Source: Hyphomonadaceae bacterium
GTDB lineage: Bacteria > Pseudomonadota > Alphaproteobacteria > Caulobacterales > Aquidulcibacteraceae
Assembly (NCBI GenBank): GCA_021299265.1
Contig: JAJTGP010000090.1
Span: 1-33,625, forward strand
Length of the DNA stretch: 33,625 nucleotides
Reading direction: 5' to 3'
A model generated the notes under the pieces. The model made no database searches and had not been told where the DNA came from. It saw nothing but the letters and a program-made list of their open reading frames with translations. Made by a program: the position numbers and the translations under genes. This document shows positions 19,791 through 25,518 of the stretch, in pieces (the stretch's first letter is position 1; each line of letters starts with the position of its first letter).

Positions 19791-19837
19791 GTATTCAAAA
19801 CGAATGCGACTTGCTGAATGCAAGTGACAAACTAGTA
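19791..19837 (+). promoter_or_regulatory. 5'UTR tandem-hairpin element of flagellin 1
   Basis: H1 GTATTC-AAAAC-GAATGC (19791-19807, one G-U pair); H2 ACTTGC-TGAAT-GCAAGT (19809-19825); TAGTA at 19833-19837. Confidence 0.65.
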
Positions 19838-19854
19838 GGGATGAGGGCTAAGAA

Positions 19855-20679
19855 ATGCTCAGCGTAAACACCAATCAAGGCGCCATGGTCGCGCTGCAAA
19901 CCTTGAACAAAACCAATTCCGATCTCGACAAGACTCAAAACGCGATTTCGACGGGTTTAAAGGTTGCCACCGCAAAAGATAACGGTGCCATCTGGGCCAT
20001 TGCCAACAAAATGAGATCTGACGTTGGTGCTTATGACCGCGTCCGTGAATCGACAGACCGCGCAGCCTCTATTCTCGATACAGGCATTGCAGCCGGCGAA
20101 AGCATCATGGAACTCCTGAACGAAATGAAGGGCAAGGCTTTGGCCGCCTCGCAAACAGGATTGTCGGCTTCTGCGCAAGCAGCTTTGGCCGCCGACTTCG
20201 CTCAATTGCGCGACCAAATCACCAGCATCGGGGCCAACGCTTCGTTTGACGGGGCCAATATGATTGCCGCTACACCAAATAACGCGGTCGCTCTGGGCGA
20301 TTCCGCAGGTGGCAACACAATCACGGTGACCGGGGTAAGCTTGGCCTTGGCCAGCACAACCATCACAGTTACGGGCACCTCCGCGCTCGACACCTCGGCT
20401 AACGCAACAACTGCTTTGGGCTTGGTCAATACGTCCATCACCAATCTGGGTACCCAATTGGCGACCTGGGGTGCAGGCGCAAAGCGTTTGGAAGTGCACA
20501 AGACCTTCATCGGTAAGCTGCAAGACGCCTTGAACAATGGCATTGGTGCCATCGCAGACGCCGACCTCGCCAAGGAAAGCGCAAAGCTGCAAGCTCTGCA
20601 AACCAAATCGCAGCTCGGCATTCAGGCATTGTCGATTGCAAACAGCTCTTCGCAGTCAGCTTTGTCGCTGTTCCGCTAA
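19855..20679 (+). CDS. Flagellin (copy 1)
   Basis: 274 aa; SVNTNQGAMVALQTLNKTNSDLDKTQNAISTGLKVATAKDNGAIWAIA; C-term ALQTKSQLGIQALSIANSSSQSALSLFR. Confidence 0.96.
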   Translation: MLSVNTNQGAMVALQTLNKTNSDLDKTQNAISTGLKVATAKDNGAIWAIANKMRSDVGAYDRVRESTDRAASILDTGIAAGESIMELLNEMKGKALAASQTGLSASAQAALAADFAQLRDQITSIGANASFDGANMIAATPNNAVALGDSAGGNTITVTGVSLALASTTITVTGTSALDTSANATTALGLVNTSITNLGTQLATWGAGAKRLEVHKTFIGKLQDALNNGIGAIADADLAKESAKLQALQTKSQLGIQALSIANSSSQSALSLFR

Positions 20680-20712
20680 AGCTCATAAGAAGAAAAAAGT
20701 ATCTTTCAAATT

Positions 20713-20742
20713 GGCTCAAGCAGAGATGCTTGGGCCTTTTTT
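20713..20742 (+). terminator. Rho-independent terminator after flagellin 1
   Basis: GGCTCAAGCA-gaga-TGCTTGGGCC followed by TTTTTT. Confidence 0.88.
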
Positions 20743-20780
20743 GCATTTTATTTTATGAATACCTCAGATTCTCACCGAAT

Positions 20781-20791
20781 CAATAAAATTG
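20781..20791 (+). promoter_or_regulatory. CAATAAAATTG promoter-like element upstream of flagellin 2
   Basis: Variant of CGATAAAATTG found at nearly the same distance (106-110 nt) before flagellins 3 and 4. Confidence 0.4.
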
Positions 20792-20839
20792 TATCTAGTT
20801 ATTAGAAATATATTTCATCCCCGGTGTTACCATGATGTA

Positions 20840-20879
20840 GATCAAAAAGATCGGTGCATCTGAATGATGCATTTTAGTA
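20840..20879 (+). promoter_or_regulatory. 5'UTR tandem-hairpin element of flagellin 2
   Basis: H1 GATC-AAAAA-GATC (20840-20852); H2 TGCATC-TGAAT-GATGCA (20855-20871); TAGTA at 20875-20879. Confidence 0.65.
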
Positions 20880-20897
20880 CGTACCGGAGGATCAAGA

Positions 20898-21722
20898 ATG
20901 ATCAGTGTAAATACCAATCAGGGTGCCATGGTAGCCCTGCAAACTCTGAACCGCACCAACAACGAAATGAACAAGACGCAAAACGCGATTGCCACGGGTT
21001 TGAAAGTCGCTTCAGCAAAAGACAATGGTGCTTTGTTCGCCATTGCCAACAAAATGCGTTCGGACGTGACAGCCTATGACCGCGTGCGGGAATCGGCCGA
21101 TCGTGCAGCTTCCATCCTCGACACTGGCATCGCAGCTGGTGAAAGCATCATGGAACTGTTGAACGAAATGAAGGGCAAGGCTTTGGCCGGCACGCAGGCG
21201 GGTAACTCCACTTCTGCTCAGGCTGCTTTGGCTGCCGACTTCGTGCAATTGCGTGACCAGATCACCAGCGTGATCGCCAACGCTTCGTTCGACGGCGCAA
21301 ACATGATTCAAGGTACACCCAATAGTGCGGTCTCCTTGGGTGATGCAGCCGGTGGTAACACCATCACCATCGCCGGTGCCAGCTTGGCTTTGGGCGGCAC
21401 CACGGTGACCGTTGCAGCCGCGGCGGTCTTGACCGACAACACCACTTCTGGAACGGCACTTGGCCAAGTCAACGCGTCTATCACCAACTTGGGGACCCAA
21501 TTGGCGACCTGGGGTGCTGGTGCAAAGCGCCTAGACGTTCACCGTACTTTCGTTGGCAAATTGCAAGACGCTTTGAGCAATGGGATCGGGGCCATCGTCG
21601 ACGCAGACCTCGCCAAAGAAAGTGCCAAGCTGCAAGCCTTGCAAGTCAAGCAACAGCTGGGCGTGCAAGCTTTGTCGATTGCCAATGGTTCTTCGCAAAC
21701 GGCGCTATCTTTGTTCCGCTAA
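20898..21722 (+). CDS. Flagellin (copy 2)
   Basis: 274 aa; MISVNTNQGAMVALQTLNRTNNEMNKTQNAIATGLKVASAKDNGALFAIANKMRSDV; GGAGG RBS. Confidence 0.96.
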   Translation: MISVNTNQGAMVALQTLNRTNNEMNKTQNAIATGLKVASAKDNGALFAIANKMRSDVTAYDRVRESADRAASILDTGIAAGESIMELLNEMKGKALAGTQAGNSTSAQAALAADFVQLRDQITSVIANASFDGANMIQGTPNSAVSLGDAAGGNTITIAGASLALGGTTVTVAAAAVLTDNTTSGTALGQVNASITNLGTQLATWGAGAKRLDVHRTFVGKLQDALSNGIGAIVDADLAKESAKLQALQVKQQLGVQALSIANGSSQTALSLFR

Positions 21723-21748
21723 TCTTGAAGAAATACCTAAAATCGAAT

Positions 21749-21786
21749 GGGCTTGGACAGGTTTAGTCCAAGCCCTTTTTTATTCT
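21749..21786 (+). terminator. Rho-independent terminator after flagellin 2
   Basis: GGGCTTGGAC-aggttta-GTCCAAGCCC followed by TTTTTTATT. Confidence 0.92.
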
Positions 21787-21839
21787 ATACTGCATTATTC
21801 GCACTATTCTTGAATATGTTTTTGCATTTACCAAGAGTT

Positions 21840-21850
21840 CGATAAAATTG
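21840..21850 (+). promoter_or_regulatory. CGATAAAATTG promoter-like element upstream of flagellin 3
   Basis: Sits in aagagttCGATAAAATTG, identical to the flagellin 4 upstream element inside otherwise diverged sequence. Confidence 0.45.
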
Positions 21851-21899
21851 TTCCTATTTGTAAAACTGAAAATCCGCCTTCGATCCCTAGTCTCCGCGC

Positions 21900-21941
21900 A
21901 AGTCTGAATGACTTTCATGCCTGAATGGCGTGATTTTAGTA
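21900..21941 (+). promoter_or_regulatory. 5'UTR tandem-hairpin element of flagellin 3
   Basis: H1 AAGTC-TGAAT-GACTT (21900-21914); H2 TCATGCC-TGAAT-GGCGTGA (21915-21933, one T-G wobble); TAGTA at 21937-21941. Confidence 0.65.
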
Positions 21942-21959
21942 CCAGTAAGGAGATCAAGA

Positions 21960-22784
21960 ATGATCAGCGTAAATACCAATCAAGGTGCCATGGTCGCTTT
22001 GCAGACCTTGAACCGCACCAATGACCAAATGGACAAGACGCAAAACGCGATTGCCACCGGCCTCAAAGTTGCTTCGGCTAAAGACAATGGTGCCTTGTTC
22101 GCCATTGCAAACAAAATGCGTTCGGACGTGACCGCTTATGACCGCGTGCGGGAATCAGCCGATCGTGCATCTTCCATCCTCGACACCGGCATCGCAGCTG
22201 GCGAGAGCATCATGGAACTTCTGAACGAAATGAAGGGTAAGGCTTTGGCCGGTACCCAAGATGGTAACTCGGCTTCGGCACAAGCGGCGCTCGCTGCTGA
22301 CTTCGTGCAATTGCGCGACCAAATCACCAGCGTCGTCGCCAACGCGTCGTTCGATGGTGCCAACATGATTGCAGCTACCCCAAGCAGCGCCGTATCATTG
22401 GGCGACGCAGCTGGCGGTAACACCATCACCATTACTGGCATCAGCTTGGCTTTGGACAGCACGACCATCAGCGTCGCCGGTACCAACGTCTTGACCGATA
22501 ACACGACGTCGACCGCAGCACTGACCGCAACCAACAACTCCATCAACGCTTTGGGTACCCAATTGGCGACCTGGGGTGCTGGTGCGAAGCGCTTGGAAGT
22601 GCACAAGACCTTCATCGGCAAATTGCAAGACGCATTGAACAACGGGATCGGCGCGATTGTTGACGCCGACCTCGCCAAGGAAAGCGCCAAGCTGCAGGCT
22701 CTGCAAGTCAAGCAACAGCTTGGTGTGCAGGCTTTGTCGATTGCTAACTCTTCTTCGCAAACAGCGCTCTCGTTGTTCCGCTAA
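21960..22784 (+). CDS. Flagellin (copy 3)
   Basis: 274 aa from ATG 21960 (AGGAG at proper spacing); the ORF track's start at 21930 (GTG) is inside the leader. Confidence 0.95.
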   Translation: MISVNTNQGAMVALQTLNRTNDQMDKTQNAIATGLKVASAKDNGALFAIANKMRSDVTAYDRVRESADRASSILDTGIAAGESIMELLNEMKGKALAGTQDGNSASAQAALAADFVQLRDQITSVVANASFDGANMIAATPSSAVSLGDAAGGNTITITGISLALDSTTISVAGTNVLTDNTTSTAALTATNNSINALGTQLATWGAGAKRLEVHKTFIGKLQDALNNGIGAIVDADLAKESAKLQALQVKQQLGVQALSIANSSSQTALSLFR

Positions 22785-22811
22785 GATAAGAAGAAAATCA
22801 AAAACAAATTG

Positions 22812-22840
22812 GGCCTGGATCACTTCGATCCAGGCCTTTT
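22812..22840 (+). terminator. Rho-independent terminator after flagellin 3
   Basis: GGCCTGGATC-acttc-GATCCAGGCC followed by TTTTCTT. Confidence 0.9.
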
Positions 22841-22891
22841 CTTACGCAATTAACTGCGAAATCTCGATTCTATTTGGCGTTACTAAGAGTT

Positions 22892-22902
22892 CGATAAAAT
22901 TG
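22892..22902 (+). promoter_or_regulatory. CGATAAAATTG promoter-like element upstream of flagellin 4
   Basis: aagagttCGATAAAATTG, 110 nt before the ATG at 23013 (flagellin 3: 109 nt). Confidence 0.45.
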
Positions 22903-22952
22903 CTTCCATTTCAAGAACAGAAAATACGGGTCCGAGACTTATTCTCACGGGT

Positions 22953-22994
22953 AAGTCTGAATGACTTTCATGCCTGAATGGCGTGATTTTAGTA
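22953..22994 (+). promoter_or_regulatory. 5'UTR tandem-hairpin element of flagellin 4
   Basis: H1 AAGTC-TGAAT-GACTT (22953-22967); H2 TCATGCC-TGAAT-GGCGTGA (22968-22986); then TTTTAGTA. Identical to the flagellin 3 leader. Confidence 0.65.
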
Positions 22995-23012
22995 CCAGTA
23001 AGGAGATCAAGA

Positions 23013-23837
23013 ATGATCAGCGTAAATACCAATCAAGGCGCCATGGTAGCGCTTCAAACTTTGAACCGCACCAACAACGAGATGGACAAGACGCAAAACG
23101 CGATTGCCACCGGCCTCAAAGTCGCTTCAGCAAAAGACAATGGCGCTTTGTTCGCCATTGCCAACAAAATGCGTTCTGACGTCACGGCCTATGACCGTGT
23201 GCGTGAATCCGCAGACCGTGCATCTTCCATCCTCGACACTGGCATTGCTGCTGGTGAAAGCATTATGGAACTCTTGAACGAAATGAAGGGCAAGGCCTTG
23301 GCCGGCACCCAAGTTGGCAACTCAGCTTCAGCTCAGGCTGCTTTGGCTGCCGACTTCGCTCAATTGCGCGATCAAATCACCAGCATCGGCGCCAACGCGT
23401 CGTTTGACGGTGCCAATATGATTGCAGCTACTCCAAGCAACGCCGTTTCTTTGGGTGACGCCGAAGGTGGTAACACCATCACGATCTCCGGCATCAGCTT
23501 GGCCTTGGGTAGTGCAACGATTTCGGTAACAGGTACGAATGACGTTGCCTCAACCGCAAACGCCACGACTTCTCTGACGAACGTCAACGCCTCCATCACC
23601 GCTTTGGGTACCCAATTGGCGACCTGGGGTGCTGGTGCGAAGCGCTTGGACGTTCACCGTACGTTTATCGGGAAACTGCAAGACGCTTTGAACAACGGGA
23701 TCGGGGCCATCGTGGATGCCGACCTCGCTAAAGAAAGCGCCAAGCTGCAAGCTTTGCAAGTCAAACAACAGCTAGGCGTTCAAGCTTTGTCGATTGCCAA
23801 TAGTTCTTCGCAAACAGCGCTCTCGTTGTTCCGCTAA
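23013..23837 (+). CDS. Flagellin (copy 4)
   Basis: 274 aa from ATG 23013; high similarity to copies 2 and 3. Confidence 0.95.
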   Translation: MISVNTNQGAMVALQTLNRTNNEMDKTQNAIATGLKVASAKDNGALFAIANKMRSDVTAYDRVRESADRASSILDTGIAAGESIMELLNEMKGKALAGTQVGNSASAQAALAADFAQLRDQITSIGANASFDGANMIAATPSNAVSLGDAEGGNTITISGISLALGSATISVTGTNDVASTANATTSLTNVNASITALGTQLATWGAGAKRLDVHRTFIGKLQDALNNGIGAIVDADLAKESAKLQALQVKQQLGVQALSIANSSSQTALSLFR

Positions 23838-23860
23838 GATCAGTCTAGCACAAAAATTTC

Positions 23861-23893
23861 AGGCCCGGCGTCAAACCCGGGCCTGCTTTTTAC
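23861..23893 (+). terminator. Rho-independent terminator after flagellin 4
   Basis: GC-rich inverted repeat caggcccgg...cgggcctg followed by ctttttac. Confidence 0.85.
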
Positions 23894-24071: not shown

Positions 24072-24509
24072 ATGAACATCGAGACGAAGAATATCTCGCT
24101 GACACAAACCGCACCAATTGCTCCCATACGTCCGGGGCAGGAGGCGGTTGTGGTACAACCAGCGTCCAAAAACATCAGAAATCAGCAAACCGATGACCGT
24201 GCGCCGTCCAATGACTATAAGCGCCCGGTAGGCCAAGGGTCCAAGTCTGCCCCGGTTGAGTCCGTGCAGGATGAGCTCGACGCTGAGCAACGCGTTGCCA
24301 TGGTTGAAAAGATCATGGGAATCAACAAATCTTTAGTCATTGAGAAAAACAAGGATTCCCAAGGCTTCATCTATAAATCGGTGGATCGGGTGACTGGTGA
24401 AGTCACGCGGATTTGGCCAATTGAAGACTTGGCGAACACCCTGACCTCGCTGGCTGATGAGGAAGAGCGCGCCACCATGCGGGGCGTGATGATTGACGCA
24501 AGAGCTTAA
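24072..24509 (+). CDS. flaG: FlaG family protein
   Basis: 145 aa; C-terminal NKSLVIEKNKDSQGFIYKSVDRVTGEVTRIWPIEDLANTLTSL is FlaG-like; within the flagellin cluster. Confidence 0.82.
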   Translation: MNIETKNISLTQTAPIAPIRPGQEAVVVQPASKNIRNQQTDDRAPSNDYKRPVGQGSKSAPVESVQDELDAEQRVAMVEKIMGINKSLVIEKNKDSQGFIYKSVDRVTGEVTRIWPIEDLANTLTSLADEEERATMRGVMIDARA

Positions 24510-24654: not shown

Positions 24655-25518
24655 TTGGCATCGACTGTTAACACCAATTTGGCAGCTTTAGGCGCCGTCC
24701 AATCCTTTAACACCGTCAATCGAGGCGTTGAACAGGTGCAAAATCGGATCTCGACCGGACTGAAAGCAAGCGGCGCTCGCGACGGGGCCGCCACCTTTGG
24801 CATTGCCCAGCAACAGCGGGCCGAGGCCAGTAGCTTAGAGGCCGTGACCACCAGCCTTAACCGCGCTCTCAGCATCGCCGATGTCGCGCTCGCAGCCGGG
24901 TCTGCTTTGTCGGATGTCCTCACCCAAATGCGCGAAAAGGCCGTCGCTGCCTCGGACACGTCGATCACCGACATGAGTCGCGCGATTCACAATGCTGACT
25001 TCATCGCGCTCCGCGATCAGATTGGGGGCATCATTGCCAATGCCTCGTTTGACGGCCAAAATCTTCTGGCTGGACCAGCTTCCAGCAGCCTCACCTTCTT
25101 GGCCAGCACCAATGGATCCGTTAGCCTCGACTTGCCGGTCCTAGACTTGAGGCTGCCGGCGAGCCCCGGTGCCATCGCCAGCCCAGCCGCCGCTATGTAT
25201 CTGGGTAGCGGCACAGCCCTGTCCAGCGCGGCCAATAGCGTGGATGCGGCCGCGCGGGTCAGTGCCAGCCTCGACTATCTCAACACCGAACTTTCGCGTC
25301 TGGGTGCAGCCAGCAAAAAGTTTGAGAACCAGATCGTCTATTTTTCAAAGCTGAAGGACAGCGTCACCGCCGGGATCGGCCAAATGGTTGATGCCGATTT
25401 GGCATACGAAAGCGCCCAATTGCAAGCTCTTCAAACCCGCCAGCAATTGTCTGTTCAAGCCATGTCGCTGGCCAATCAAGCGCCCCGCGCGATTTTGAAT
25501 CTCTTGCGGGATAGCTAA
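24655..25518 (+). CDS. Divergent flagellin (copy 5; TTG start)
   Basis: 288 aa from TTG 24655 (GAGGAGG RBS); ASTVNTNLAALGAVQSFNTVNRGVEQVQNRISTGLKASGARDGAATFGIAQQQRAEASSL; C-term YESAQLQALQTRQQLSVQAMSLANQAPRAILNLLRDS. Confidence 0.9.
   Translation: MASTVNTNLAALGAVQSFNTVNRGVEQVQNRISTGLKASGARDGAATFGIAQQQRAEASSLEAVTTSLNRALSIADVALAAGSALSDVLTQMREKAVAASDTSITDMSRAIHNADFIALRDQIGGIIANASFDGQNLLAGPASSSLTFLASTNGSVSLDLPVLDLRLPASPGAIASPAAAMYLGSGTALSSAANSVDAAARVSASLDYLNTELSRLGAASKKFENQIVYFSKLKDSVTAGIGQMVDADLAYESAQLQALQTRQQLSVQAMSLANQAPRAILNLLRDS

Follow-up and report, generated by a model that had tools for sequence, protein, structure and literature searches.

A tandem-hairpin RNA element in the leaders of structural flagellin genes and its probable reader FlbT

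What are the paired hairpins that stand just before the start codons of consecutive flagellin genes in a relative of Aquidulcibacter? The window considered here, a stretch of 33,625 nucleotides (contig JAJTGP010000090.1 of assembly GCA_021299265.1, Hyphomonadaceae bacterium), contains four consecutive structural flagellins (F1-F4), each with its own leader and its own terminator-like stem-loop. The leaders of structural flagellins carry a cis-acting RNA element, and its two tandem pentaloop hairpins most likely form a binding platform for FlbT with an FljJ-like co-repressor, braking flagellin translation. The FlbT-FljJ mechanism is taken from the Caulobacter literature; the structure, covariation, position, distribution and near absence from the FljJ-like clade were computed here.

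All of the hairpins that the original prediction had picked out before F1-F4 (Table 1) are present, hairpin 2 ending 26-29 nt before the ATG, and the minimum-free-energy RNA fold of each leader contains exactly hairpins 1 and 2. Given that the single-sequence folding energies of these leaders are modest or weak (z -1.6 to -2.4), the case for the hairpins rests on comparison. The source genome has 14 flagellin matches, and several flagellin leaders on its other contigs also bear two hairpins, with a UCGUA loop (C257), a shifted loop (C47), or AAAAC and AAAAU loops (C191).

Flagellin leaders were gathered from 78 loci of public genomes and from the source genome, giving 201 distinct leaders. The tandem-hairpin architecture recurs in about 200 distinct leaders of Hyphomonadaceae, Maricaulaceae, Robiginitomaculum and Kordiimonadales, and also in Caulobacteraceae, in the common form of two successive C-G-closed pentaloops [A/U][A/G]AAN, with loop starts most often 17 nt apart and the end of hairpin 2 mostly 24-31 nt 5' of the ATG. 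Tandem 5-nt-loop hairpins with a score of at least 24 were found in 36% of the 201 leaders, as against 0.8% of dinucleotide shuffles and 7% of stretches further upstream; similarly, C-NNAAN-G hairpins occur at 11 per kb in leaders and 0.38 per kb upstream. Because choosing sequences by their pairing had to be avoided, pairing was tested in the flanks of a loop-only anchor, the 7-mer C-NRAAN-G, taken only where its spacing to the ATG was right. Hairpin 2 then pairs at positions 2-5 in 96, 93, 94 and 84% of cases, with six pair types at each position, compared with 47-51% once the 3' arms have been re-dealt; for hairpin 1 the figure at positions 2-4 is 93-96%, and the flanks of the same 7-mer anywhere in the loci pair in 42-46%. 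A model-fitted alignment (A3, 70 distinct rows) scored 0.839 for covariation against 0.215 when shuffled, but this alignment leans towards structure and relatedness inflates shuffle tests, the loop-anchored percentages being safer though relatedness affects them too. All pair types are present in its stems, G-U pairs making up 7.4% of stem cells, and its loop reads A/U, A/G, A, A and any letter, the third and fourth positions being A in 69-70 of the 70 rows. UGAAU, as read in the window, is a local variant of this family loop; the conservation first claimed for it holds in the Aquidulcibacter-like genus and near kin, not as an invariant of the family. The strong loop-anchored covariation, the G-U pairs, an A-rich loop that is asymmetric between the strands and the location at the 5' end uphold the original prediction of a selected RNA structure rather than a DNA operator.

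A covariance-model search of relatives' flagellin leaders, which that prediction had proposed, recovered the family before flagellins and on the sense strand only. Model R1, run over 0.92 Mb, gave 112 matches at E<=1, none antisense and nearly all directly 5' of a flagellin ATG by coordinate comparison; in the source genome only flagellin leaders fall below E = 1. Model R2 recovers Caulobacteraceae leaders outside its training set and found there the leader of a MALNS-type, FljK-like flagellin (GAGC-AAAAU-GCUC / GUC-AAAAU-GAC). It matches both structural flagellins of an fljJKL-like cluster (L338; E 6e-4 and 0.04), more weakly L132, L145, L148 and L149, and none of the eight FljJ-like leaders searched. 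Genome-wide searches ran behind strict prefilters, and across 241 genomes of the class R2 matched 12 at E<=0.1, within chance expectation at that threshold; the sole informative part is linkage, 6 of the 11 other genomes' matches being linked to a flagellin or flbT. Rfam gave nothing credible in the window (gathering score, E<=10) or in the relatives. The suspected link to flg-Rhizobiales RNA found no support: that RNA is likewise a flagellum-linked cis RNA of several hairpins in Alphaproteobacteria, but it precedes basal-body operons, not flagellins, and its model (RF01736) has no match above the gathering score in the window and none in the relatives. Against 14 genomes RF01736 was silent, as were the controls, so that this search is no evidence of absence elsewhere.

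Where relatives have a visible sigma-54 promoter, its TTGC most often lies 11-13 nt from the first stem, so that hairpin 1, by sigma-54 promoter geometry, begins around mRNA position +1 to +3. F1-type leaders show, by eye, TTTACCAT-like (CtrA-like) and GCTAGC-like motifs 8-9 nt 5' of hairpin 1; consequently the leader RNA of the window genus, too, probably starts with hairpin 1, a predicted start. A AGTTNGATAAAATTG-like block about 117-131 nt 5' of each ATG is conserved in the F2-F4-type leaders of the genus and resembles a promoter or activator element. C191-type leaders of this genome (L008, L047, L049, L050) have another type of promoter, with a repeated GGTAAC...GATTCATAACCC...GGTAAC 5' of hairpin 1.

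Folding further revealed a third hairpin over the start codon in F1-F4, missed by the original prediction. A C-G-closed hairpin of at least four pairs covers the AUG in 93 of 273 flagellins, whereas re-dealing the upstream parts among genes gives 36 on average and 53 at most, and the start-codon hairpin occurs in 71 of 200 flagellins as against 47 of 487 other open reading frames (ORFs). Codon 2 (Ile, Leu, Ala) varies together with its upstream pairing partner. This hairpin is not universal, and hairpins 1 and 2 are stronger. At the Shine-Dalgarno sequence, relatives have a CC-AGAAY-GG motif with a strongly recurrent loop, dropped as a structure for its little covariation. One flagellin leader (L286, in G135) carries two full element hairpins and then a third, AGCAAAATGCA-like one.

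Which flagellins carry the element is equally informative. It was first reported before all four tandem flagellins, which is true of F1-F4, but the cluster has a fifth flagellin, F5, whose leader lacks it. Only 6 of 43 flagellins with the N-terminus S[VIL][HQ]TN (HTN, or FljJ-like) have the element, compared with 167 of 187 others (Fisher p 5e-22, near relatives not being independent), and none of the 15 leaders of families f2 and f138 does. In a 120-row tree, element-poor rows concentrate in one group of 30 rows, 24 of them without the element, which as a whole is weakly supported; F5 falls in this FljJ-like group with an HTN-type paralogue of its own genome on C304. A Caulobacter-like three-flagellin cluster lacks the element at its third flagellin, MTIGVHTN, FljJ-like by similarity, and similarity, gene order and a CtrA-like box suggest that the true FljJ belongs to the HTN group. 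According to PMC7591256, FljJ of C. crescentus is a CtrA-activated regulatory flagellin that FlbT needs to repress the other five flagellins, the FlbT-FljJ complex being the repressor and FljJ secretion lifting the repression (there citing Ardissone 2020). This model predicts that the co-repressor be exempt from its own brake, as the element-poor FljJ-like clade appears to be, and F5 is a candidate FlbT co-repressor.

The source genome encodes FlbT, as do 58 of 60 family genomes, and in 45 of the 78 loci the flagellins have flbT 0.55-3 kb upstream of them. Pfam confirms FlbT and FlaF of the source genome, where flbT precedes and overlaps flaF (L336, G000:C43); unlike in most relatives, the pair lies off the window's contig. 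CsrA, which in other bacteria commonly brakes flagellin production, was not found in the source genome or in any element-bearing genome searched, and is present in only 3 of the 55 genomes searched, all without FlbT. In two of these three (L293 in G076, L256 in G082) AGGAA-loop hairpins occupy the same place in the flagellin leader and are likely CsrA sites. A GTC-AGGAY-GAC-type leader hairpin (AGGA loop) occurs, as a separate observation, in genomes with one or few long flagellins, those searched being without CsrA; its leaders belong to f3 (L166, L176, L202, L204, L205, L130, L133, L134, L140, L212) and others (L216 and L172 in f139; L324 and L335 in G217). Distribution, flbT linkage and CsrA absence favour FlbT as the putative reader and, with the near absence from the FljJ-like clade, support the FlbT/FlaF-type regulator of the original prediction, whose contact with the loops we infer. 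According to two reviews, FlbT acts through the flagellin 5' untranslated region (5'UTR) in Caulobacter (PMC4347634, PMC3930126). A review leaves the FlbT binding sequence blank and calls the mechanism unresolved (PMC4347634).

The proposed mechanism starts from the two tandem hairpins, which would lie at or close to the very 5' terminus of structural-flagellin mRNAs; many species add a third hairpin of similar kind that covers the start codon, the Shine-Dalgarno sequence or both. For as long as the hook-basal body is unfinished, a complex of FlbT and the FljJ-like flagellin on the loops would keep the start region closed, with hairpin 3 as the putative point of repression, and would also shorten the life of the mRNA. 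On completion, secretion of the FljJ-like flagellin with the help of FlaF would empty the complex and allow the flagellins to be translated.

Several observations weigh against this reading. The F1-F4 leaders have no sigma-54 box by eye, although the genome encodes sigma-54, and in the loop-anchored test the Shine-Dalgarno mini-hairpin hardly covaries past its second pair. Brucella FlbT has been proposed as an activator, not a repressor (PMC4347634). In FlbT-bearing genomes of other orders 27% of the sampled flagellin leaders pass a strict scan, as against 1 of 14 leaders from genomes without FlbT, and many of their other leaders have related AGAA tetraloops or nothing clear; either FlbT sites are variable or some FlbT targets have a different appearance. 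Finally, with FlbT so widespread, co-occurrence by itself is not strong evidence.

Among the alternatives, a 5'-terminal stability element is conceivable: at +1 to +3, hairpin 1 would protect the mRNA from 5'-end-dependent decay, its loop unread by any specific protein. Flagellin mRNA is abundant, 5' stem-loops protect mRNA in other bacteria, and hairpin 1 does lie at the extreme 5' end in the sigma-54 relatives. Such an element, however, needs neither an invariant AA in two successive loops nor a second hairpin at fixed spacing, and predicts no absence from one paralogue clade, so that as a full explanation it is rather unlikely; a stability role may be played in addition to FlbT binding. Just as doubtful is a reader other than FlbT, whether FlaF, an unrecognised RNA-binding regulator or a small RNA. 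The partnership of FlbT with the loops is putative, sequence comparison yields no relative of solved structure and Foldseek no credible match, which leaves room for such a reader; in Caulobacter, however, FlbT is reported to act on the flagellin 5'UTR (PMC4347634, PMC3930126), and flbT is a frequent neighbour of flagellins. DNA inverted repeats (an operator) or transcription attenuators are far less probable. Hairpin 2 of F3 and F4, followed by TTTT, matches a terminator-like pattern, yet the arms vary freely while pairing is kept, G-U pairs occur, the loop is strand-asymmetric, and instead of the GC stem and conserved U-run of an intrinsic terminator there is TTTT only after hairpin 2 of F2-F4, with no conserved T-run there in relatives, most of which lack the TTTT. 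Control of the CsrA/FliW type would work alike, through hairpin loops near the flagellin start, and G076 and G082, with CsrA and without FlbT, do have AGGAA-loop hairpins in the same place, but the loops UGAAU, AAAAC and AAAAA lack GGA and csrA is absent from the source genome and every element-bearing genome searched, which, barring a gap in an assembly 95% complete, rules out CsrA sites in the window genome and leaves this explanation almost no credence.

If FlbT is the reader, an extension of that reading, itself improbable and kept as a lead only, is that FlbT is a remote CsrA-like RNA-binding protein. Its N-terminal ~45 residues would read [A/U][A/G]AAN pentaloops as CsrA reads ANGGA, the start-codon hairpin would be a third copy of the site, and Alphaproteobacteria would have exchanged one translational brake on flagellin, built on hairpin loops, for another, timed by an exported flagellin paralogue. 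These N-terminal residues, containing ...NKASVLREKDI, form five strands and then a helix in a model, and FlbT aligns collinearly with CsrA at 34-36% identity over 38-39 columns with a similar strand and helix order, at non-significant profile scores (hhalign: 38 columns, P 0.055). Against FlbT, 12 of 1331 decoys scored better than one alphaproteobacterial CsrA, and four of those 12 score as FlbT relatives do; E. coli CsrA was mid-field among decoys, and Foldseek with the full FlbT model and with its N-terminal part returned no CsrA.

FlbT control via the flagellin 5'UTR has already been established by others, and the element is likely its general form; the Caulobacter hairpins may already have been drawn in Anderson & Gober 2000. 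Like the FlbT-regulated fljK leader of C. crescentus (PMC4347634, PMC3930126, PMC7591256), the element lies in the 5'UTR of structural flagellin mRNAs, in a genome with FlbT and FlaF, shows the FljK-type structure and is mostly missing from separate FljJ-like paralogues; Caulobacteraceae FljK-like leaders carry the same hairpins. What sets it apart is that it forms a covarying family, spread over many genera and sharing a loop consensus, and that it comes with a start-codon hairpin and with promoters not of the sigma-54 type. CsrA/RsmA sites in flagellin leaders are also protein-binding hairpin loops, several per leader, that block flagellin translation, as is proposed here, but their loops are ANGGA rather than [A/U][A/G]AAN. 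ANTAR RNAs have hexaloops with different fixed letters and act by antitermination before other genes, and the window has no Rfam match to them. They resemble the element in having two tandem hairpins read by one protein (PMC4347634), a reader that is putative here.

The action of FlbT through the flagellin 5'UTR has been known for more than 20 years, and the element, if so read, would be its long-sought docking site and an RNA counterpart to CsrA/FliW control in genomes without CsrA. Loop consensus, free stem sequence, fixed 5'-end position and the paralogue exception together provide a precise test in Caulobacter, and the covariance model can find candidate FlbT targets across Alphaproteobacteria.

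Table 1. Positions of the leader hairpins, flagellin genes and terminator-like stem-loops in the window.
Feature	Position	Strand	Sequence or size	Basis or remark
F1 hairpin 1	19791-19807	+	GTATTC-AAAAC-GAATGC	sequence, folding
F1 hairpin 2	19809-19825	+	ACTTGC-TGAAT-GCAAGT	sequence, folding; 29 nt 5' of ATG 19855
F1 start-codon hairpin	19845-19860	+	GGGC-TAAGAAAT-GCTC	folding; RNA pairing GGGC-UAAGAAAU-GCUC; includes ATG 19855-19857
F1, structural flagellin	19855-20679	+	274 aa	
F1 terminator-like stem-loop, 3'	20713-20736	+		
F2 hairpin 1	20840-20852	+	GATC-AAAAA-GATC	sequence, folding, R1 (E 8e-5)
F2 hairpin 2	20853-20873	+	(GG)TGCATC-TGAAT-GATGCA(TT)	sequence, folding, R1; core 20855-20871
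F2 start-codon hairpin	20890-20903	+	GATC-AAGAAT-GATC	folding; includes ATG 20898-20900
F2, structural flagellin	20898-21722	+	274 aa	
F2 terminator-like stem-loop, 3'	21749-21775	+		
F3 hairpin 1	21900-21914	+	AAGTC-TGAAT-GACTT	sequence, folding, R1 (E 3e-5)
F3 hairpin 2	21915-21933	+	TCATGCC-TGAAT-GGCGTGA	sequence, folding, R1
F3 Shine-Dalgarno mini-hairpin, possible, weak	21942-21950	+	CC-AGTAA-GG (2 bp)	counterpart of relatives' CC-AGAAY-GG
F3 start-codon hairpin	21952-21965	+	GATC-AAGAAT-GATC	folding; includes ATG 21960-21962
F3, structural flagellin	21960-22784	+	274 aa	
F3 terminator-like stem-loop, 3'	22811-22837	+		
F4 hairpin 1	22953-22967	+	AAGTC-TGAAT-GACTT	sequence, folding, R1 (E 4e-5)
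F4 hairpin 2	22968-22986	+	TCATGCC-TGAAT-GGCGTGA	sequence, folding, R1
F4 start-codon hairpin	23005-23018	+	GATC-AAGAAT-GATC	folding; includes ATG 23013-23015
F4, structural flagellin	23013-23837	+	274 aa	
F4 terminator-like stem-loop, 3'	23860-23885	+		
F5, fifth flagellin, FljJ-like paralogue group, candidate co-repressor	24655-25518	+		leader without element

The nearest named relatives of the source genome are Hyphomonadaceae bacterium UKL13-1 and Aquidulcibacter. F5 has a TTG start and is divergent, with 41% identity to F2. Between F4 and F5 lies a 145-aa ORF (24072-24509) with no Pfam match, whose position suggests a FlaG-like protein.

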